Source of the DNA: Rhizobiaceae bacterium
GTDB lineage: Bacteria; Pseudomonadota; Alphaproteobacteria; Rhizobiales; Rhizobiaceae
Direction: 5' to 3'
Length of the DNA stretch: 64,000 bases
Assembly: GCA_029233925.1 (NCBI GenBank)
Contig: JARGOX010000009.1
Location: 186,001 to 250,000 of the forward strand
Each line of letters starts with the position of its first letter. The first letter of the stretch is position 1. The notes below the pieces were generated by a model. That model was not told the DNA's origin, ran no database searches, and saw only the letters and a list, made by a program, of their open reading frames with translations. Made by a program: the position numbers and the translations under genes. Shown one piece after another: positions 16,335-56,800 of this stretch.

Positions 16335-18095
16335 ATGAATCTTTTCAAAGACTTTGAAAAGCGCGTTGTCGATGCGCTTCAAGCCCTGGATCAGATCCAG
16401 AACCATGATGGCCCCATCAGCTTTGAGCGTGTGGCAATCGAGCCGCCTCGCGATCCCAGTCATGGTGATGTCGCTACAAATGCCGCCATGGTGCTGGCCA
16501 AATTGCTTGGTACAACGCCGCGCGCCCTTGCGGAAGATATATCGCGCATTCTGGAGAGGGACGCTGATATCGAGTCGGTGTCTGTTGCCGGGCCGGGGTT
16601 CATCAATATGAAACTGTCTGCGGTCTTCTGGCAGCGCACGTTATCGCAGATGATTGCAGCCGGCGACAGCTTCGGCCGCAGCACGATGGGTGAAGGTCGC
16701 AAAATCAATGTTGAATATGTTTCAGCCAATCCCACTGGTCCGATGCATGTCGGCCATTGTCGCGGAGCCGTCGTCGGGGACACGCTTGCCAATCTTCTGA
16801 CATTCAGCGGTTATGACGTTACCAAGGAATATTATATCAATGATGCCGGTTCGCAAATTGATGTGCTGGCCCGTTCCGTATTTCTTCGTTACAGGGAAGC
16901 GCTGGGCGAAAAAATATCCGAGATTCCTGCCGGTCTCTATCCGGGAGATTATCTGGTCCCTGTCGGCAAGCTGCTGGCTGAACGGTTTGGCATCAAATTG
17001 CGTTCCATGGCGGAAGCGGACTGGATGCCGATCGTCAAGGATGCGGCCATTGATGCGATGATGGATATGATCCGCGCCGACCTGGCATCACTCCACGTTG
17101 TGCATGATGTGTTTTTCTCCGAACGGACGCTGCATGACAATGGCGCAAAGGCGATCCGCGAGGCGATCAATGACCTGACGTTCAAGGGACATGTCTACAA
17201 GGGCACGCTGCCACCGCCAAAGGGACAATTGCCAACGGATTGGGAAGACCGCGAGCAAACCCTTTTCAAGTCCACCGATGTGGGTGATGATATTGACCGG
17301 CCGCTGATCAAGTCCGATGGTTCCTATACCTATTTTGCTGCAGACGTGGCCTATTTCCACGACAAGTTCGAGCGCGGGTTCGAGGAAATGATCTATGTGC
17401 TCGGCGCGGATCACGGTGGTTATGTCAAACGGCTGGAGGCGGTTGCCAAGGCTGTTTCGGCTGGTCAATCCAGGCTCACCGTCCTGCTATGTCAATTGGT
17501 CAGGCTTTACCGCGAGGGTGAACCGGTTCGCATGTCAAAACGTTCCGGTGATTTTGTTACCCTGCGTGAAGTTGTTGATGAAGTCGGAAGCGATTCTGTT
17601 CGTTTCATGATGCTTTATCGCAAAAGTTCCGAGCCGCTTGATTTTGATTTTGCCAAGGTGACGGAACAATCCAAGGACAATCCTGTGTTCTATGTGCAAT
17701 ATGCCCATGCGCGCTGTCATTCCGTATTTCGACAGGCGGCACAGGCATTTCCCGATGTTGATATTGATTCGGTCGATTTTTCAAAGGCCATCGCTGATCA
17801 CATTCGTGATGCAAGTGAAATGCAACTGGTTGGCAAACTCGCCGAATTCCCCAGAATTGTGGAAAGTGCTGCGGCGGTGCATGAGCCGCACAAGATTGCA
17901 TTTTACCTCTATGATCTGGCGAGTGCCTTCCACGCTCATTGGAATAAGGGTAAAGATTCAAAAGAGTTGCGGTTTATTAACGATAATAATTTACACTTGA
18001 GTTTGGCCAGACTTGGGTTGGTAAAGGCGGTTGCCACCGTATTAAAATCGGGCTTGTCGATTACGGGAACAAATGCGCCGGCGGAGATGCGTTGA
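16335..18095 (+). CDS. argS: Arginine--tRNA ligase
   Basis: Class I aminoacyl-tRNA synthetase charging tRNA-Arg. The HIGH-type motif is in [17 protein letters not shown] and the KMSKS-type loop is [12 protein letters not shown]. The N-terminal additional domain starts [20 protein letters not shown], and the C-terminal anticodon-binding DALR domain ends the 586-residue protein. Upstream in-frame codons from 16242 overlap the end of dgt and do not resemble the family, so I use ATG 16335; ATG 16326 is the alternative. Confidence 0.95.
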
Positions 18096-21991: not shown

Positions 21992-22873
21992 ATGGTGAAC
22001 GCGTTGAAAAAACAGTCGGTACCGGTCGGTGCGAAAGCACCGATGGATCGACTGTGGGAAGACGCAGATTCCGTTGATCGCGGCCTGAGTGAACCGGCAC
22101 TGGTTATCGACATTGACGGCTTTGAGGGGCCACTTGACCTTCTGCTGCATCTGGCCAGAAACCAGAAGGTTGACCTTGCGCGTATTTCGGTTCTGGCATT
22201 GGTCGAGCAATATCTTGTTTTTGTCGATCGTGCCCGGCGGGTGCGTCTGGAGCTGGCCGCTGATTACCTGGTCATGGCGGCGTGGCTGGCTTTCTTGAAG
22301 TCCAAACTCCTGATCCCGCAAAAAGCTGACAGTGACGAGCCCAGCGGTGAGGAAATGGCGGAGCAACTGGCTTTCCGTCTCAAGCGGCTTGAAGCCATGA
22401 GAGATGCCGCAACCCGGTTGGTCAACAGGAACAGGCTGGGACGGGATGTTTTTGCACGGGGCAATCCCGAACTGGTTGTTGTTGAAAAGAAGTCCAAGTT
22501 TGACGCGACCCTTTATGATTTGCTCAATACCTATTCTGGAATGCGCCAGCGCCAGTCGGTCTCGCAGGTCACCATTTCCCGACGCCGCGTCTGGTCTTTG
22601 AGTGACGCGCGGGTCATTTTGCAGCGCCTGATTGGAGAGTTGCATGAATGGACTGCGCTTGAACATTTTCTCATTCGTTATTTGAGCGATCCTGAAGAAC
22701 GGGCGACAGCAATTGCCAGTTCCTTTGCCGCGACGTTGGAGATGGTGAGGGAAGGGCATCTGGAAATTCGTCAGGAACTGGCTTTCGCACCGATCTATTT
22801 GCGACGGGGAAAGCCTCAGGAAGGCTCCGTATCCGGGGACAATATTGCTCAAGAGGTAAAGCAGAATGTCTGA
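21992..22873 (+). CDS. scpA: Segregation and condensation protein A
   Basis: Kleisin subunit of the Smc-ScpAB condensin, bridging Smc heads. The 293-residue protein has the FEGPLDLLLHLARNQKVDL N-terminal motif and LVMAAWLAFLKSKLLIP, both diagnostic for ScpA, and a winged-helix C-terminus (about residues 215-265). It overlaps scpB by eight bases, as expected for partners made in fixed ratio. The first 40 residues before the kleisin motif are basic and poorly conserved. Confidence 0.93.
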   Translation: MVNALKKQSVPVGAKAPMDRLWEDADSVDRGLSEPALVIDIDGFEGPLDLLLHLARNQKVDLARISVLALVEQYLVFVDRARRVRLELAADYLVMAAWLAFLKSKLLIPQKADSDEPSGEEMAEQLAFRLKRLEAMRDAATRLVNRNRLGRDVFARGNPELVVVEKKSKFDATLYDLLNTYSGMRQRQSVSQVTISRRRVWSLSDARVILQRLIGELHEWTALEHFLIRYLSDPEERATAIASSFAATLEMVREGHLEIRQELAFAPIYLRRGKPQEGSVSGDNIAQEVKQNV

Positions 22874-39484: not shown

Positions 39485-40909
39485 TTACTCCTGTTGTGCC
39501 ACAACGCTCTGATCTTCAACGCCAAGCCAGGCGCTGCAATCGGTCAGGGCACGCGCCGCAATGGTTCGCTTTTTGACCAAAGTCTTGTCTTTTCCACGGA
39601 AGCGCTTGAGGCCTTCGGGTCTGATGATCTCGACCGGTGGGAAAAGGCCGAAATTGACATTCATCGGCTGAAAAGAGCGTTTTCCAGGTTCATCGTTCCA
39701 GGAAAGATGACCGCCTGTAATATGTCCGAGAAGCGCACCAAAGGCCGTCGTCTGTGGTGGCGGGGAGATCGGGTTCCCCAGCAGTTCCGCAGCCGCAAAA
39801 CGACCGGCCAAAAGGCCCATGGCTGCTGATTCCACATAGCCTTCGCAACCGGTGATCTGACCGGCAAAACGCAGGCCCGGACGAGACTTGAGCTGCAAGG
39901 ATCCGTCCAGTAAATCCGGTGAATTGATATAGGTGTTTCTATGCAGCCCCCCGAGGCGGGCAAATTCCGCATTTTGCAATCCGGGAATCAACTGAAAAAT
40001 GTCTTTTTGCGCGCCATATTTCAGTTTTGTCTGAAACCCCACCATATTGAACAGTGTGCCCAGCGCATTGTCCTGCCGCAATTGCACCACGGCGTAGGCC
40101 TTGACGTCCGGATTATGGCAGTTGGTCAGTCCCATCGGCTTCATCGGGCCATGGCGCAGAGTTTCGCGACCACGCTCGGCCATCACTTCGATCGGCAGGC
40201 AGCCGTCAAAATAAGGCGTTCCTTCCCAGTCCTTGAATTGGGTTTTTTCACCCGCAATCAAGGCATCGATAAAGGCGCCGTACTGGTCTTCATCCATCGG
40301 ACAATTGATATAGTCCTTGCCCGTTCCGCCTGGCCCGACCTTGTCGTAGCGCGATTGGAACCAGCAGATATCCATATCGATACTGTCAAAATGCACGATG
40401 GGTGCTATGGCATCAAAAAAGGCGAGGGCATCGGAGCCGGTTTGCTGCTTGATCGATTCGGCCAGTGCGGGGGCTGTCAGAGGACCGGTCGCAATGATTG
40501 TCTGGGGCCAGTCAGCGGGCGGCAACCCTGTCACTTCCTCACGGCTGACGGTAATGAGAGGATGGGCTTCAATTGCTGCGGTGACTGCATCGGAGAACCC
40601 GTCGCGATCCACGGCCAGAGCACTTCCGGCCGGCACCTGATGTTTGTCGGCGCAGGCAATGATGATCGAATCGGCAATCCGCATTTCCTGATGCAGGACA
40701 CCCACGGCATTGGTCTGGGAATCATCTGATCGGAAGGAATTGGAACATACCAGTTCGGCCAATCCGTCGGTCTTGTGTGCCTCGGTGCCACGCACCGGGC
40801 GCATCTCATGCAGAATCACCGGTACGCCGGCATTGGCAGCTTGCCAGGCAGCTTCTGTGCCTGCCATGCCGCCGCCGACAATATGGAGTATTTTTTGTGA
40901 ATTGTTCAT
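39485..40909 (-). CDS. trmFO: Methylenetetrahydrofolate--tRNA-(uracil-5-)-methyltransferase TrmFO
   Basis: Flavin- and folate-dependent enzyme that makes ribothymidine 54 in tRNA. The FAD-binding [20 protein letters not shown] is followed by [18 protein letters not shown] and later [14 protein letters not shown], all TrmFO blocks. The start at 40909 matches the family; 12 upstream residues possible from a TTG at 40945. 474 residues. It is the upstream gene of a pair with the crotonase. Confidence 0.94.
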
Positions 40910-41110
40910 AGCGGCGCTTTTAGCATCTCGCACGGCTGCGTCCAATCAATTGAGGTGCCCTGTGCAACTCAATTATGCGCAACTCAAATATGCTTTCGCA
41001 GATGACGTGGGTTCAAGAGCAGCGCGCAGTAACCAGCGCCGCACCGGCTCTGCCTTGCAGGGGCCGGATTGAAACCTGTTCGTCGCCATGATGACAGTCA
41101 CGCGTTGCGT

Positions 41111-41257
41111 TCAGATGTCATGGATCTGACGGTGATGCCTGCCGATTTCCCGGCGATTGACGCCAATATCATTGAGGATATGGTCCGGCATACCACGCAA
41201 CATTCTGGTGGTGCGACGGTATTTTCGCCAGTTCCGGTAAACGTTCAGGATACCCAT
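41111..41257 (-). CDS. DUF1127 small protein (copy 1)
   Basis: A 48-residue basic protein of the DUF1127/YjiS-like family. It has NVYRNWRKYRRTTRMLRGMP followed by the typical ILNDIGVNRREI turn. Small DUF1127 proteins in alphaproteobacteria are RNA-binding or regulatory; one in Rhodobacter (CcaF1) influences maturation of CcsR small RNAs. This copy lies downstream, on the same strand, of the hairpin triplet at 41412-41521 and lacks the promoter-like block seen upstream of copies 2 and 3, so it may depend on read-through. Confidence 0.82.
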   Translation of the reverse strand: MGILNVYRNWRKYRRTTRMLRGMPDHILNDIGVNRREIGRHHRQIHDI

Positions 41258-41411
41258 GTTCTTGCTCTTAAAAAGGTTGTTCGAAACGGCTGTGTTCTGC
41301 GTCAATCATGGCAAATGTGAGACGTTTTGAAGAGGCTGAGCGCTTTGCGGATGTGCCCGGCGCAGATAATGTTTGGCGCCTTGCTGTTGACTACCAATTG
41401 GATAAACGACA

Positions 41412-41521
41412 ACGCCCACCGGGGGAGGATCCGATGGGCGTCATATCAACGGCTGACGATTTGGGAGGAGGTAAATGCGTCAACCTATTCCCGGACCATG
41501 GGAGGAGGTATGGTCAGGGAA
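41412..41521 (-). ncRNA. CcsR/cuckoo-like hairpin triplet, unit 7
   Basis: Three stem-loops immediately downstream of DUF1127 copy 2, 29 bases after its stop. Stems are GACCAT/ATGGTC with outer TTCCC/GGGAA (41488-41521), TGACG/CGTCA with flanking pairs (41451-41485) and ACGCCCA/TGGGCGT (41412-41441). Loops on the minus strand read ACCTCCTCCC, ACCTCCTCCC and ATCCTCCCCC. No T tract follows the last stem. The stem sequences differ from those of the tandem array, while the loops are kept, which argues that the loop is what matters. Confidence 0.7.
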
Positions 41522-41550
41522 ATCTCGGTGTCTTGGCACGTGGCGTGTTG

Positions 41551-41703
41551 CTAAACGGCACGGCGTGCAACAAAGGGTATGTCTGAACGGGCAATGCCGA
41601 TATCGCTGAGTTCGCGGTCCGACATGCGGCTAAGCTCGCTGCATGTGCTGCGATATCTGCGCCAGTTCTGAAATGACTGCTTCATAGATACCATTTTCTT
41701 CAT
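41551..41703 (-). CDS. DUF1127 small protein (copy 2)
   Basis: A 50-residue DUF1127 protein: SFQNWRRYRSTCSELSRMSD then RELSDIGIARSDIPF. The ATG at 41703 is used; Met codons at 41694 and 41685 are also possible. The promoter-like block at 41752-41787 lies about 50 bases upstream, and hairpin unit 7 follows. The gene sits between the decayed end of the array (unit 6) and unit 7. Confidence 0.85.
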   Translation of the reverse strand: MKKMVSMKQSFQNWRRYRSTCSELSRMSDRELSDIGIARSDIPFVARRAV

Positions 41704-41751
41704 CCTTCGGTGTCTTGCGATCTTGTTCCAACCGCTCTTGATCTCTGAACC

Positions 41752-41787
41752 CAATATAGGTGCAATGGATTGTATTGTGCAGTGCAA
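41752..41787 (-). promoter_or_regulatory. Shared promoter-like block upstream of DUF1127 copy 2
   Basis: Read on the minus strand: TTGCACTGCACAA, sixteen bases, then TATATTG. The same two elements with identical spacing precede DUF1127 copy 3 and units 2, 3 and 4. Conservation of both the motifs and the spacing while the middle varies is what a promoter would show. Confidence 0.65.
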
Positions 41788-41843
41788 TATTCGCAGGTGC
41801 GTCATGCATTAATGCACGGCTTGATGACTGATGGTTGAACGGA

Positions 41844-41961
41844 ATATCGCCCGCTGGGTTGAGGGAATCCAGCGAGCGATATCTATTTGCCGGGCGGTCG
41901 GGGGGGTGACGGCCGGGCAATTGGCTGGGACGATGGGGGGGGGGGGGGAAGATCATGTCCC
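41844..41961 (-). ncRNA. Degenerate hairpin triplet, unit 6
   Basis: The three stems still form: a 14-base stem with one mismatch (41844-41857 with 41869-41882), TTGCC/GGCAA (41887-41920) and GGGAC/GTCCC (41927-41961). The loops have lost CCTCCTCCC: one has only GAGGGA on the plus strand, one is G-rich and one contains a run of 14 G (41935-41948). This is a decaying copy of the array unit, or carries a sequencing uncertainty in the homopolymer. Confidence 0.55.
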
Positions 41962-42071
41962 GCTTCAATCAAACGCATAAAAGGGAAAAAGGTTCCAAGT
42001 CCTTGCGGATTTTTTTGCAATGTGCTCATTGCGTGCTCAGGCAGGCATGTGTTTGTGAAAATTGCAATTTT

Positions 42072-42170
42072 TCGCTCGCTGGGGGAGGAGATCCAGCGAG
42101 CGATATAAATTTGCCTGGCTGTTGGGGAAGAGCCGGCAAAGGCGGAACAAAGGGAGGAGAATTATGTCCC
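42072..42170 (-). ncRNA. Partly degenerate hairpin triplet, unit 5
   Basis: The terminator-proximal hairpin (42072-42103, an 11-base stem) keeps its CTCCTCCC-type loop, the middle one (42111-42139) keeps stem pairing but not the loop motif, and the first (42144-42170) keeps a CTCCTCCC loop on a weakened stem. No promoter-like block precedes it and no long T tract follows it. It is intermediate between the intact units 1-4 and unit 6. Confidence 0.6.
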
Positions 42171-42275
42171 GTGGTCAAACAACGTCGATCAGCGGAAATG
42201 GTTCCATGCTTTCATGCCGAAACGCGAAAAAAACAGCACGGATCGGAGTCGCAAGTTTGGGGGATTGAAAGAAAT

Positions 42276-42387
42276 AGCGCTCGCTGGGGGAGGAGATCCA
42301 GCGAGCGCTATCTATATGCGACCGACAGTTGGGAGGAGGATAACTGCCGGTCAAATCGCAGGGACGTTGGGAGGAGGATAACGTCCC
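42276..42387 (-). ncRNA. CcsR/cuckoo-like hairpin triplet, unit 4
   Basis: Minus-strand order: GGGACGTT/AACGTCCC stem (42361-42387), GACCGGCAGTT-type 11-base stem with one mismatch (42320-42352) and a 12-base AGCGCTCGCTGG/CCAGCGAGCGCT stem (42276-42309). The first two loops read ATCCTCCTCCC, the last ATCTCCTCCC. An own promoter-like block lies at 42404-42439. The T tract after the last stem is interrupted (TTTCTTT). Confidence 0.75.
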
Positions 42388-42403
42388 GCGAAACTGATAA
42401 TCA

Positions 42404-42439
42404 CAATATAGGTTAAGATGCTGAATTTGTGCAGCGCAA
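42404..42439 (-). promoter_or_regulatory. Shared promoter-like block upstream of unit 4
   Basis: TTGCGCTGCACAA, sixteen bases, TATATTG on the minus strand. One base differs in the first element from the block of units 2 and 3, and the bases between are the most diverged of the array copies. Confidence 0.6.
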
Positions 42440-42500
42440 TATTTGCATGTGTGCCATGCAGCAATGCATAGCTTGAAATATGCATCAGGCAAAAAAATAA

Positions 42501-42610
42501 CGCTCGCTGGGGGAGGAGATCCAGCGAGCGCTATCTATATGCGACCGACAGTTGGGAGGAGGATAACTGCCGGTCAAATCGCAGGGACGTTGGGAGGAGG
42601 ATAACGTCCC
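42501..42610 (-). ncRNA. CcsR/cuckoo-like hairpin triplet, unit 3
   Basis: Hairpins at 42584-42610, 42543-42575 and 42501-42530 repeat unit 4 almost exactly. The last stem is followed on the minus strand by a seven-T tract (42491-42497), so it should act as an intrinsic terminator. Loops carry CCTCCTCCC twice and CTCCTCCCC once. Confidence 0.78.
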
Positions 42611-42626
42611 GCGAAACTGATAATGA

Positions 42627-42662
42627 CAATATAGATTATGATGCTGAATTTGTGCAGTGCAA
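42627..42662 (-). promoter_or_regulatory. Shared promoter-like block upstream of unit 3
   Basis: TTGCACTGCACAA, sixteen bases, TATATTG on the minus strand, identical to the block of unit 2. An alternative sigma70 reading is TTGCAC, 16 bases, CATAAT within the same stretch. Confidence 0.65.
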
Positions 42663-42718
42663 TATTTGCATGTTTGCCATGCAGCAATGCATAGCTAAAA
42701 AGCTGGAGGCAAAAAAAT

Positions 42719-42830
42719 AGCGCTCGCTGGGGGAGGGGATCCAGCGAGCGCTATCTATATGCGACCGACAGTTGGGAGGAGGGTAACTGCTGGTCAAATC
42801 GCAGGGACGTTGGGAGGAGGATAACGTCCC
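42719..42830 (-). ncRNA. CcsR/cuckoo-like hairpin triplet, unit 2
   Basis: Hairpins at 42804-42830, 42763-42795 and 42719-42752. The middle stem has a mismatch compensated by none, the last loop is CCCCTCCC-like (one change). The last stem is followed by a seven-T tract (42711-42717) on the minus strand. Predicted RNA from the promoter block would be roughly 130 bases. Confidence 0.78.
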
Positions 42831-42846
42831 GCGAAACTGATAATGA

Positions 42847-42882
42847 CAATATAGATTATGATGCTGAATTTGTGCAGTGCAA
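42847..42882 (-). promoter_or_regulatory. Shared promoter-like block upstream of unit 2
   Basis: TTGCACTGCACAA (42870-42882), sixteen bases, TATATTG (42847-42853) on the minus strand. It lies about 17 bases before the first stem of unit 2, so a transcript would start at or just before the hairpins. Confidence 0.65.
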
Positions 42883-42942
42883 TATTTGCATGTGTGCCAT
42901 GCAGCAATGCATAGCTTGAAATAAGCATCAGGCAAAAAAATA

Positions 42943-43056
42943 GCGCTCGCTGGGGGAGGAGATCCAGCGAGCGCCATTATATGCGACTGACAGTTGGGAG
43001 GAGGATAACTGTCAGTCAAATCGCGAGAACATTGGGAGGAGGAGAATGTCCCGCGA
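42943..43056 (-). ncRNA. CcsR/cuckoo-like hairpin triplet, unit 1 (3' of DUF1127 copy 3)
   Basis: Starts 17 bases after the stop of DUF1127 copy 3, so it is likely the 3' UTR of that message, released by processing. Hairpins: 43021-43056 (TCGCG/CGCGA outer, ACATT/AATGT inner), 42985-43017 (perfect 11-base stem GACTGACAGTT/AACTGTCAGTC) and 42943-42974 (perfect 11-base stem GCGCTCGCTGG). Relative to other units the middle stem has changed on both sides so pairing is kept. A seven-T tract (42934-42940) follows on the minus strand. Confidence 0.8.
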
Positions 43057-43073
43057 AACTTGTTGTTTCTTTT

Positions 43074-43214
43074 TTAAAACGACTTGCGTGCGACAGTATC
43101 AATGTCGCTTCGTTTGATTCCAAGGTCAATAAGATCACGATCACCCAGGCGATTCAAGGCATCGCGTGTTTTGGTGTAATTGCGCCATTTCTGGTATGTG
43201 AGCATCATGTTCAT
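43074..43214 (-). CDS. DUF1127 small protein (copy 3)
   Basis: A 46-residue DUF1127 protein: NMMLTYQKWRNYTKTRDALN then DRDLIDLGIKRSDIDTVARKSF. The ATG at 43214 has GAAG upstream. It heads the whole minus-strand array: promoter-like block at 43269-43303, gene, then unit 1. This gene-then-hairpins order is that of the Rhodobacter DUF1127-CcsR operon. Confidence 0.86.
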   Translation of the reverse strand: MNMMLTYQKWRNYTKTRDALNRLGDRDLIDLGIKRSDIDTVARKSF

Positions 43215-43268
43215 TGTCTTCAACCGTTCGTGTGTTGGCTTTGCCAAGTGCGTCATCAACTTGAACTG

Positions 43269-43303
43269 CATATAGTGAATGGGTTTGGAGTTGTGCAGCG
43301 CAG
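43269..43303 (-). promoter_or_regulatory. Shared promoter-like block upstream of DUF1127 copy 3
   Basis: CTGCGCTGCACAA, sixteen bases, TATATG on the minus strand, with the same spacing as the array blocks although the sixteen bases between are unrelated. It would give a 5' leader of about 50 bases. Confidence 0.62.
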
Positions 43304-43397
43304 TATAGGCATAGGTGGCATGAGCTTTTTGCATGGCTGCAAAAGCAGACTGCCGGCAAGGAATCCGTTGGAGCAGGGGATTGTCATGAAATTTCCT

Positions 43398-43484: not shown

Positions 43485-43569
43485 GCGGGTGTGGCGGAAT
43501 TGGTAGACGCACCTGGTTTAGGTCCAGACGCCGAGAGGCGTGGGGGTTCGAGTCCCTCCACCCGCACCA
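43485..43569 (+). tRNA. tRNA-Leu (anticodon TAG)
   Basis: An 85-base class II tRNA. The acceptor stem GCGGGTG pairs with CACCCGC, the anticodon loop TTTAGGT gives TAG, the variable arm is a long GACGCCGAGAGGCGTGG-type stem, and GGTTCGAGTCC forms the T arm. The CCA end is encoded. Its position before tig is conserved in Rhizobiales. Confidence 0.97.
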
Positions 43570-44491
43570 AAACAGAATCTCGTCATTTCTACTGATATTG
43601 TGAATGGAAGCCCCATTTTCATTATTTGAAAAGGTTCACGCGCTCCACGTTCACTTTTGCGATGACGTCTCGCAGCGCGATGTGATGCATCGGGCAAAGA
43701 CTCAGCCGCCCCGAAGTGCCGTTTTTCCGATCTGGAGGATGTCTTGCTTTCATTGAACCACTGTGTTCGTGATCCAGTGAGTCGATCCGCCAAGAAGGCG
43801 GTAAAGAGCGATGCTTTCGCATCGGTCGAGACGCCAGACAAAACGGGTGACGCAGCGGGCGGCCACTGGTCACGAACCCTTCGGGTCAGCTGTCTTTTGC
43901 CACTATCTACGTCGTTTCGCTTGCCGGTGCCTTAAAGGTACGCGCTTCGCGAACCAACTTGATCCTGACCAAAAAACAACTGGCAGAGTGAATCAATGAA
44001 AGCCAGACATGCTCTATTGCCATTGGATATGCGTTGCCTGGGCTACTCATTTCGGGGTCGGAATGTTTCCGACCACCAGTCGTACTGTCACCATGGCTGT
44101 CAGACTGAGGATGTCATACTTTTGCATTTGGAAAAACATATCGAAAGTCCCATTGGAACCAGAAGCGCAGGATTTGGGTTCTTCGCTGACACCTGAGCAA
44201 TATTGAAAAATGGGCCGGAATCACCGCGAATAGCGGATTTGCATTGCAGCTTTGCGACCAATTTGCTATTGCGCGGCGAACGCCCGTTGGCGGCAACCGA
44301 TTTTCGCTCGCATGAGGATAGTATATCGGACTGCGCGATACGGAAAAAGTCAATAATTACAACGGTTCAGTGCCCAAGTTGCTACGGTAGGGGTGCTGCA
44401 GCTGATCGTTGCCAAGCTTGGCAGGCAGTAGAACATCACTTTGACCAGCCTTTCGGCAGGTGGTGATTGATACGAGATTGAAGGTTTGAAT
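43570..44491 (+). other. 920-bp intergenic region with several short hairpins
   Basis: No convincing gene lies between the tRNA and tig. The stretch 43787-43955 contains four short-loop hairpins: CCGCC-AAGAA-GGCGG (43787-43801), CGATGC-TTTC-GCATCG (43809-43824), ACCC-TTC-GGGT (43876-43886) and GGT-A-CGCG-CTT-CGCG-A-ACC (43937-43955). They may be part of an unrecognised RNA or chance. The tig promoter should lie near the right end but is not clear. Confidence 0.4.
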
Positions 44492-53802: not shown

Positions 53803-56800
53803 TTACCACATTTCCCGCGCGTTCAGCAGATGGCCGGAAATGGTTTTCAGCAGGTTGAGGGCGACATCCCGGTCATGCTCCACAACATCAAGAAACGCCT
53901 GTTTGCCAATTCGCAATCCAGTCAGGTCAGTGGTTGCAACCATGTCAAATTCACGATCCCGCTCCATGATGATGGCAAGGTCGCCGATGATGCGTCCCGG
54001 CTCTATTGTCGTAATCAGCAGCGCCTTGTGTTCATCCGTTTCGGGTAGCCATAATTCGGCTTTGCCTTTGGTGAATGTGTAGGCACCATCTGTCCGGTCG
54101 CCGGTTTTAAAGATCTTTTCGCCTTTCTCGTATTTCACCCATTGGGAGCCATAGGCAAGCAGGCGCAATTGTTTGCGGTCAAGATCTGCAAAGAGGGCGG
54201 TGCGCGCCAGTACGTGAAGCTTCTCTGCCAGTCCGGCAGCCGCCGGTGCAGAAGTCTCATCTGGCACCTTTTCGTTTGTCTCCACAGCATATCCGGTGGG
54301 GACAAGCTGTCCGCCGCGCAATTCGTAACAGGAATCGTATTGCTGCGGATTGCGAAATTTTGATTCAAGCACGATGATCGTCGCATTGGGCAACAACCTG
54401 CGGGCTTTTTGTTTCATCTCGCTGCGCTTGCTCTCCTCTTCGGAAGCAAAAATGCGATCCAGTATCAGGATATCCGGACGTCTGATGGCCGCACGAATGA
54501 AATCGATATGTTCCTGTGCTATCTGCGGAAAGTTGGCGCCATTGAATCCGGCTTCCGTATCCGCATAAAGAAGCATGATATCGGTTTTGATGTCTTCTTC
54601 CTGCAGTGCCTGTGAAATGATTTTCATCAGCGCCTTCGAGGTGCCAACCGTGTATTTGGAAACCCGTGCGAAGAGTATATTTTCCAGTATGCTGAGATTT
54701 GGGCAGTAGGTATGCCGATCCAGTGGTGCGTAAAATTCCCGCACCCGATGGTAGATCTGAAAACCGTAGTCACGGCGGGCCTGGGTAATTTTTTCTGTCA
54801 GTTCGTGCGGGAAAGCGTCTTCAAACTGTTCTGCCGTGATGCGAAACGGAAGGCTCATGACCAACATGGTTTCATCGTGAGACAGGGAGTGCCAACCCAT
54901 TTTTTGCTGCTTGCGATAAATGGATACGAGACTTTCAAAAAAGTCGGAGGTGAGCGTGGCAACGCGAAGGAACATGGGATGTTCCGCACCGACATTCGAA
55001 AATGTCTGCACCAGCACGGCCATGAGATCCATGGCCAGCTGTTTTATGTCATCTTCCAGTCCCAGTTCCCGCAAGGTTGACAGAAAAACCGGGTCATCAA
55101 CGATCTGATGATCGCTGGTGCCGTCATTGCGTATGGCAAAAAGAATATTCTCGCTGACGGTCAGGGCGGGATTAAAGTGCGCGCGGTCAAAAAAGTGTAC
55201 GAATTTGGCAAAATCACCAGACCTCAATTCGTCTCGCAAACGCGCCCGGATCGCAAGGATCTTGCTGGTTAGCTCAGGATAATTCTCCCGGTCGATTCTG
55301 GCCTCGAGTCCTCGCTGCATCAGCATGTCCTGAAGTCCGATGGCGTTGATGATCTCGAGCCACCATTCACGCAATTCAGCGGGTGTATGTGCACCCACCA
55401 ATTCCGGGTCAAGCCATTGATCCTGCAGGGAGTAGGGGCTGTTGCCGACGCGTGTGGATTCCTCGATTTCGGTGATTTGCGCATCGGTGAGCGTTTCAAC
55501 GCCGATGGGCGCCGGCATGAGCGGCATCTGTACATTTTGCCCCACCGAACCACTGAATATATGTGGTGTGCCGCCCGCTGAGCCGATGCGGCTTGATATT
55601 GTTTCCTGATAGAGTGAAGCCAGGTCGTGACCAGCGATCGTGATGCTTCCTGAGGCCGGTAGAACAGATCGGTTCAAAGCCTGGACAAAGGCCCGCCGGG
55701 CAAAGGCATTGTCGCTTTGAATGGCAATGAAGGACCCCTTTTTGAAATCAGCACTGATCCTGTTGAGTACGGGCATGCCGTATTGATCAAGGATTGTGAG
55801 ATCGCGGATCGAAATATCACCCGCAAGATGGGGAATTTTCTCCGGTCTTGAATAAAACAGATCCTCATCAATCATGCCCGGCTGCGTAAACTGTTCGGTT
55901 ATCGTGCGGTACCGCAGGCTGACATCCTGAATCTGGCTGTAATAGGCCAGCAATTCGCGCCAGGGGGACATCAGATCCTTGTGCGAAGCCAGCGCCGCTG
56001 CGAGCGCGCCGACTGTCAGTTCTCCCTGGATAACCAGATATCCGCCTATGGAAAGAAACAGAAAAGGTGTCAGCTGATTGATGAAATTGTTGAGAAATTT
56101 CATCAGAAATTTGAGATTGTAAATACTCAGACGAATTTTGAATATCTCACCGAACCGATTGGAGAAATCGGCAAGTGTATAACTCAGGCCATTGACCGTG
56201 CGCAGGGATTCAACGCCGGTAACGGTTTCTCCTATGCGATCCGACAGGGAGCGAACGACCAGGATACGTTCCTTGTTCAAGAGGTTTATCTGCCGTTGGA
56301 GCCTCGGAATGATATAGGCCTGAAGGGGGATCAGGATAATGGCAGCGACACCCAACCATACGTTCTGTACAAATAGAAAACCGGTGATCGTCAGCATCTG
56401 ACCAGCCGCAAACACCGGTCTTGAGATTGCATCGCCCATCATGGTGCACAATGCTTCCGCTTCAGCGGTAATCATTGAAATCAGCGCACCCTGGGATGTC
56501 CTGCGAAATTGCGGCAGAGGCAGTCGCAGCATTCTAGAAATGAGTTGATATCTGAAACGGCGCAGCAGACGCTCGGCGACCACGCCTTTATAGATATTCG
56601 TCTGCATCTTCAGCACGCCCGAGACAATGACGGTCAAAAGAAAAGCGATGCAAAGGGTCGCCAGATATTCAAACTGGCCCAGGGGAAAACCGTACAATGT
56701 AATGGGGAATGTTGTGGAACCAATTGCCTCGTTGATGATCTGTTTTGGCAATTCCAGAGACATGTAGAGAATCGGAAAGGAGATCACCGTCAGGATCAAC

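Follow-up and report, generated by a model that had tools for sequence, protein, structure and literature searches.

The DNA analysed here, referred to below as the window, is a stretch of 64,000 nucleotides from a Rhizobiaceae bacterium (assembly GCA_029233925.1, contig JARGOX010000009.1), whose minus strand carries an array of three-hairpin units of a small RNA (sRNA) family interspersed with DUF1127 genes, flanked by tRNA-Leu (43485-43569, plus strand) and tig on one side and by trmFO (39485-40945, minus strand) on the other. Read in the direction of transcription, the array consists of DUF1127-1, u1, u2, u3, u4, u5, u6, DUF1127-2, u7 and DUF1127-3. The seven hairpin triplets, 21 hairpins altogether, that had been proposed for the minus strand in an original prediction made from the sequence were confirmed by folding, with predicted energies of -41.4 to -62.5 kcal/mol, and the three DUF1127 genes proposed with them all score above the Pfam cut-off, the third (41111-41305) lying outside the interval 41412-43303 to which the prediction had referred. 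Units u2 to u4 share 97-99% pairwise identity at start-to-start distances of 220-223 bp, u1 is 88-90% identical to them, and u5, u6 and u7 show 54-70% identity to other units. From u1 through u6 the start-to-start distance is 207-223 bp, and from u6 to u7, with DUF1127-2 in between, it is 445 bp. Since the copies differ in sequence, the array is not a single copy multiplied by assembly error, and if the genome came from a short-read assembly, there could be more copies than were counted.

When the units were scored with Rfam covariance models, u1, u2, u3, u4 and u7 exceeded the cut-off of ar14 (RF02344, the NfeR1 family; 58.8 bits) with 74.4-107.9 bits. The CcsR1 model (RF02791) reached 30.3-44.3 bits in five units, below its cut-off of 65.3, and was rejected as the exact family; the CcsR/cuckoo identity assigned originally thus holds in that this is a cuckoo-type anti-Shine-Dalgarno array linked to DUF1127, the precise family being ar14 rather than CcsR. 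Units u5 (51.3 bits) and u6 (30.4 bits) fall below the ar14 cut-off and are classed as divergent ar14 derivatives from their tandem position, their structure and scores of 59.1 and 44.8 bits with a model, R1, which was built from an alignment (A2) of 30 ar14 members, three from the window and 27 from relatives, covers hairpins 2 and 3 only, and gives each of the seven units between 44.8 and 126.5 bits. In A2, 33 of the 40 pairs of the three-hairpin structure changed on both sides against a shuffled mean of 24.1, and the covariation score was 0.452, whereas shuffles gave 0.204, with none of 500 reaching the observed score, and sliding the structure gave 0.147 at most, figures that lean towards the structure since it was taken from u4 alone and the shuffles ignore relatedness. 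The share of cells pairing is 62% in hairpin 1, 84% in hairpin 2 and 97% in hairpin 3. Swapping of arms in a fixed register among 67-68 distinct arm pairs never reached the observed pairing in 1000 swaps, either for hairpin 1 (0.553, swap maximum 0.487) or for hairpin 2 (0.682, maximum 0.542). The ar14 stems change in a compensated fashion over the 30 members with the motif in loops 1 and 2 hardly varying, and random drift of stems and loops alike is not what is seen.

The loop motif CCTCCTCCC occurs exactly ten times in the window, the number predicted, always in the array and on the minus strand, with 0.40 expected and none of 100 shuffles reaching ten. In u1-u4 and u7 it is exact in loops 1 and 2 and shortened or shifted in loop 3. 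Most of the other loops had been described as close variants, which applies to seven of the remaining 11, namely CTCCTCCC in five (hairpin 3 of u1, u3, u4 and u5 and hairpin 1 of u5), TCCTCCC in hairpin 3 of u7 and CCTCCC in hairpin 3 of u2, and does not apply to four clearly altered loops, those of hairpin 2 of u5 and of all three hairpins of u6, two of which are poly-C. Hence u5 and u6 have kept their hairpins and not every loop motif. The odd loops of u6 are kept in a sister species (genome G006) apart from the length of the C tracts. These seed-loop tracts (window 41842-41970; locus L152, 331-454) measure 14 and 7 in the window and 9 and 9 in the sister species, and the differences possibly reflect slippage tracts or sequencing error.

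Table 1. Features of the array, listed in the order of the predicted transcription
Feature	Position	Strand	Evidence	Remarks
LsrB/VtlR-type box TGCAGCCATGCA and -10 CTATAT	43270..43341	-	pattern match	putative promoter of DUF1127-1; 54 nt apart
DUF1127-1	43074..43214	-	PF06568, 40.5 bits	46 aa from the ATG downstream of the promoter (start codon inferred from promoter position); 86 aa in the open reading frame (ORF) list
u1, ar14 unit	42938..43061	-	Rfam, 106.9 bits	3' untranslated region (3'UTR) of DUF1127-1, ~12 nt past its stop; terminal hairpin and T7
LsrB/VtlR-type box and -10 of u2	42849..42911	-	pattern match	45 nt apart
u2, ar14 unit	42715..42839	-	Rfam, 98.5 bits	
LsrB/VtlR-type box and -10 of u3	42629..42691	-	pattern match	
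u3, ar14 unit	42495..42619	-	Rfam, 106.3 bits	
LsrB/VtlR-type box and -10 of u4	42406..42468	-	pattern match	
u4, ar14 unit	42272..42396	-	Rfam, 107.9 bits	
EcfG-type motif GGAAC-N16-CGTT of u5	42181..42205	-	exact match to consensus reported in PMC3892343	
u5, divergent ar14 unit	42067..42177	-	51.3 bits, below cut-off	loop 2 altered to UCUUCCCC
EcfG-type motif GGAAC-N16-CGTT of u6	41972..41996	-	exact match	
u6, divergent ar14 unit	41842..41970	-	30.4 bits, E 0.0036; model R1 44.8 bits, E 8e-11	poly-C loops
LsrB/VtlR-type box and -10 of DUF1127-2	41754..41816	-	pattern match	45 nt apart
DUF1127-2	41551..41703	-	Pfam, 58.5 bits	50 aa if the start is downstream of the promoter; 84 aa in the ORF list
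u7, ar14 unit	41407..41525	-	Rfam, 74.4 bits	3'UTR of DUF1127-2, ~25 nt past its stop
DUF1127-3	41111..41257	-	Pfam, 41.2 bits	48 aa from 41257; 64 aa in the ORF list (41111-41305); without an ar14 unit behind

Two kinds of promoter motif are found in the array, the first of which resembles sites of the LysR-type regulators LsrB and VtlR. A search of the 6.1 Mb genome for the pattern TGCA-N4-TGCA-N40-56-CTATAT gave five exact matches (reversed control 0). Every one is in the array, preceding DUF1127-1, u2, u3, u4 and DUF1127-2, with 45 nt between box and CTATAT in four blocks. The box of DUF1127-1 coincides with the final 12 letters of CAATGCAGCCATGCA, the VtlR motif given for Brucella in PMC12595884, and the Agrobacterium box GCAT-N3-TG-N3-T of PMC7486931 is matched exactly at DUF1127-1, u2, u3, u4 and the ar15/AbcR homologue of the genome and with one letter off at DUF1127-2. 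In S. meliloti, lsrB is reported to adjoin ar15 (PMC7143759), and in the present genome a LysR gene adjoins the ar15 homologue. According to PMC10746234, S. meliloti NfeR1 requires LsrB, acting at -72 to -57; VtlR of Brucella is reported to raise AbcR2 and three DUF1127 proteins (PMC12595884), and that of Agrobacterium is described as activating abcR1 and atu1667, an orthologue of two small VtlR-activated B. abortus genes (PMC7486931). Among the stretches of the genus that were compared, G006 alone has the exact TGCA-N4-TGCA core ahead of a DUF1127 gene; it also has such a core shortly upstream of the EcfG motif of u5, where the window has none. A longer block, ATATTGC[AG]CTGCACAA followed by CTATATT, is visible ahead of several DUF1127 genes of the genus, and therefore u2-u4 have plausibly captured a DUF1127 promoter.

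The second kind of motif, GGAAC-N16-CGTT, is the one reported for EcfG1 of R. etli (PMC3892343) and occurs five times in the window against 0.93 expected, a number reached in none of 100 shuffles, with two of the occurrences directly before u5 and u6. Upon comparison of these two with G006, none of the 18 motif positions has changed, as against 11 of the 32 internal positions and 33-44% of the adjoining spacers. In the genome, an EcfG motif also lies 123 bp before the match to the NepR gene, and two more are on the opposite strand of that stretch. Other exact occurrences of GGAAC-N16/17-CGTT in the window are at 16981-17006, 22698-22723 and 54961-54985 (-). Promoter-like blocks and terminators of their own had been proposed originally for some units, and they were found as promoter blocks of u2-u4 and as a terminal hairpin followed by seven T in u1-u3, u4-u7 having a weak T run or none; what had been missed were the LsrB/VtlR-type boxes and, for u5 and u6, both the EcfG motifs and the altered loops. 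A generic terminator scan found none on the minus strand, the scan being limited to loops of 3-8 and the array loops being longer.

The locus is probably best explained as an amplified ar14/NfeR1 (cuckoo-type) sRNA locus in which one array is placed under two regulatory inputs. Its likely starting point would have been the order DUF1127 - ar14 - DUF1127 - ar14 - DUF1127, each sRNA following directly on a DUF1127 gene; from this the first sRNA would have been multiplied to six. With putative promoters of their own like those of two of the DUF1127 genes, consisting of box and -10, u2-u4 would yield separate RNAs of ~125 nt when LsrB is active, and the EcfG motifs would allow transcription of u5 and u6 in the general stress response.

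Another way of reading the same array, possible if unlikely, is that of one long DUF1127-sRNA transcript cut by RNase E, as described for ccaF1-CcsR1-4 of R. sphaeroides (PMC10253847), with the internal promoters decayed or weak. The position behind a DUF1127 gene, which had been put forward as CcsR-like for the array, is indeed that of u1 and u7, ~12 and ~25 nt past the DUF1127 stops, and is not that of the other units; among 119 units surveyed (seven from the window, 95 from trmFO loci and 17 from the genus, where there were 19 non-window rows), 54 are directly behind a DUF1127 ORF. In Aurantimonas, locus L072 has one DUF1127 gene followed by six units 19-23 nt apart, an arrangement compatible with a single transcript. 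However, each of u2-u4 has an exact box and -10, the terminal hairpin and T7 would terminate u1-u3, and u5 and u6 have EcfG motifs that stayed constant amid drifting spacers, all of which argues against a single transcript.

The locus and its link to DUF1127 are widespread, in agreement with the 'CIN1 locus' as described in PMC10253847. An ar14 match was found in 194 of 199 genomes sampled from the family, in 184 of them above the cut-off, with up to 10 per genome among the matches listed; this survey used stricter filters, and longer runs elsewhere are possible. All eight genomes of the genus have ar14 matches, with 2-7 in each. The same locus between tRNA-Leu/tig and trmFO recurs in relatives, with at least one ar14 unit at 54 of 80 trmFO loci (one unit in 23, two in 25, three in 4, four in 1 and six in 1) and a DUF1127 call, made with an iterated hidden Markov model, at 52 of these 54. 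The 80 loci came from named contigs with a trmFO identity of at most 81%, a sample that may leave out the nearest records, and 102 of 110 unit rows were kept (seven of the window and 95 of the loci), eight with E values of 0.001-0.066 being dropped. At gaps of at most 350 nt, the longest runs in the loci examined are seven units in the window, six in L072 and four in L078, the last two from Aurantimonas. The claim of an array much larger than the known four holds for the number of seven units and is qualified by these other large arrays, which also led to the uniqueness of a long array at the locus being dropped. The Aurantimonas arrays (L072, 5094-5899, six units; L078, 2193-2687, four units) have a spacing of 6-23 nt behind a single DUF1127 gene. 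A further three-hairpin RNA with C-rich loops, scoring 38.6 bits to ar14, is present elsewhere in the genome (L007, 1501-1630, corresponding to G000:C17:148152-148281, plus strand), with an identical unit and a different upstream region in the sister species (L025, 1501-1630).

Regarding the origin of the expansion, G001, G002 and G003, out of seven further genomes in the genus, have the order DUF1127 - ar14 - DUF1127 - ar14 - DUF1127. Units u1-u4 are 71-82% identical to the first unit of these genomes as compared to 53-60% to the second, and u7 is about equally close to both (61-66%), with 84% identity to the second unit of locus L153 and 100% to its counterpart in G006. Because of these similarities and the gene order, the window represents the arrangement of the three genomes, enlarged by five copies that follow the first unit and precede the second gene; a same source for u5 and u6 is suggested mainly by their place and third hairpin. 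The comparison with G006 covers u5-u7, as contig C16 begins at the end of u4 and contig C50 on the tRNA-Leu side stops there. In it, u7 is unchanged at all 119 positions, u5 differs at 9 of 110 (8.2%; adjoining spacers 38-44%) and u6 at 10 of 118 (8.5%) with seven further gap columns, against 3.5% in the 5' part of trmFO, 5.4% in DUF1127-2, 6.8% in DUF1127-3 and 9.7-44% in spacers. These values bear on a third account, a doubtful one of lower standing, by which the duplication is redundant or decaying and the extra copies functionless, u2-u4 being recent tandem copies and u5 and u6 relics. The identity of 97-99% among u2-u4 is compatible with recent duplication, the loops of u5 and u6 are off consensus, and S. 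meliloti is reported to express one of six copies detectably (PMC7143759). However, the divergence of u5 and u6 from G006 is well below the 33-44% of the spacers, and their stems fold. Close to tRNA-Leu, a 32-nt stretch at 43666-43697 (-), single in the window, is found at six places in G006 at 94% identity and is an interspersed repeat.

EcfG control of ar14 may recur beyond this locus, as far as motifs indicate. Of the 118 units whose upstream sequence was long enough, four are preceded by the exact motif, namely u5, u6 and both their G006 counterparts, against a rate of 0.00025 per unit in mononucleotide shuffles. The motif followed by CTCCTCCC is present in 19 of 199 genomes (reversed control 6), and 16 of the 18 non-window loci with this combination carry an ar14 match. 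The motif overlaps an apparent coding-frame end in 13 of these 19. A pattern made from such ends, leaving CGTT out, is found in 20 of the 199 genomes, and 13 of the 20 have CGTT at the fixed place; since CGTT-bearing matches were the source of the pattern, this is suggestive only. At loci L157-L162, L166-L170, L172 and L175, frames ending in GAACT..CGCCTGA stand before an ar14 unit, with the EcfG-like motif spanning the stop codon. Genomes G016 and G119 have the exact motif directly ahead of an ar14 unit, and the notion of EcfG-driven ar14 restricted to the genus was dropped on their account.

As to the mode of action, NfeR1 is reported to silence ntrB, its redundant loops pairing with the start region (PMC10746234). 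By the array model with two inputs, each RNA would present up to three C-rich loops for pairing with G-rich Shine-Dalgarno sequences, which would stop translation, chiefly that of genes for uptake and catabolism, and the changed loops of u5 and u6 would probably shift the target set. The sequence GGGAGGAG is found 4-12 nt before an ATG 23 times in the genome as compared to once in the reversed control, and the 16 candidate target proteins comprise three solute-binding proteins and one ATPase of the ATP-binding cassette (ABC) type, three AMP-binding enzymes, seven proteins with other Pfam matches and two without. That the array, instead of silencing particular mRNAs, acts as a sponge that titrates LsrB through five boxes or soaks up messages or other regulators is very improbable, for although five box-pattern matches lie within ~1.6 kb beside up to 21 C-rich loops, NfeR1 works at ntrB by ordinary pairing with redundant loops (PMC10746234).

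Several observations weigh against an amplified ar14 array under LsrB- and EcfG-type control. On the side of targets, three of the 23 rows are antisense within the array and two represent one site, leaving 19 sites, of which three have ORFs of 5-31 codons only, and the apparent agreement with the ABC-transporter theme of NfeR1 is only a plain motif count with no background of ABC genes. On the side of LsrB, the box of DUF1127-1 is 54 nt from its -10 and not 45, the S. meliloti box TGCA-N6-GCAT of PMC10746234 is exact at u2, u3 and ar15 and one off at u4 and both DUF1127 promoters, and the ar15 block lacks TGCA-N4-TGCA, being two off. As the published box forms and their matches disagree, the blocks look LsrB/VtlR-like and the exact box is unsure. 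What likens the LysR gene to lsrB is its position only, and a generic sigma-70 scan gave 6 sites with 3.1 expected (standard deviation 1.7). Concerning u5 and u6, both are without a T run, u6 has a low Rfam score and is absent from one list of ar14 matches, the three further EcfG matches of the window have no assigned role, and one-mismatch EcfG hits ahead of other units, 3 among 118, lie close to the chance rate of 0.009 per unit. Copies of the array could also be silent by analogy with S. meliloti, where Northern blots are reported to have detected one of six copies (PMC7143759).

The family, the loop motif, the link to DUF1127 and control by LsrB are already known, and no description of an ar14 array under mixed LsrB-type and EcfG-type control was found in searches of the open-licence literature. 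The chances are evenly balanced that an anti-Shine-Dalgarno sRNA of a DUF1127 3'UTR moved here to stand-alone genes via capture of a DUF1127 promoter, that LsrB (redox and nutrients) and EcfG (general stress) were joined in one 2-kb locus, and that the seed loops of the EcfG-driven copies changed, among them C homopolymers that differ in length between sister species. If this is true, one could see here directly how a 3'UTR sRNA gained independence and divided its work. Multi-copy anti-Shine-Dalgarno RNAs pose the question why near-identical regulators persist, and the array suggests a testable answer, with dosage provided by u2-u4 and different triggers and seeds by u5 and u6. With the 3'UTR form, as in CcsR, beside the stand-alone form, as in NfeR1, and a promoter type shared by both, a route between them becomes visible, and the array shows how one regulator could be multiplied and rewired.

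Among known systems, ar14/NfeR1 of Sinorhizobium meliloti is alike in its three hairpins, CCUCCUCCC loops, length of ~120 nt and several copies per genome, as well as in the LsrB-type box upstream (here a putative one, of u2-u4) and the candidate targets of ABC type. The array differs from it in the tandem run of seven, the predicted mixture of 3'UTR, LsrB-type and EcfG-type control and the changed loops of u5 and u6. The CcsR1-4/ccaF1 system of Rhodobacter sphaeroides and the 'CIN1 locus' of the cuckoo RNA family likewise have anti-Shine-Dalgarno sRNAs behind DUF1127 genes, a place held here by u1 and u7 only, whereas the Rfam model of CcsR1 has two hairpins and the array units have three, and whereas ccaF1 and the four CcsR RNAs are reported to share one RpoHI/RpoHII promoter (PMC10253847), three DUF1127 genes and internal promoter motifs are present here. 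In the AbcR (ar15)/VtlR-LsrB regulon, DUF1127 proteins are reported to be raised by VtlR in Brucella, the difference being that here the promoter type is common to DUF1127 genes and ar14 copies within a single locus. Finally, the EcfG/SigT-dependent GsrN of Caulobacter, as described in PMC5869019, combines an EcfG-type motif with C-rich loops as do u5 and u6, a likeness of motif and loop type, and unlike GsrN these two units are ar14 derivatives within a DUF1127 locus.

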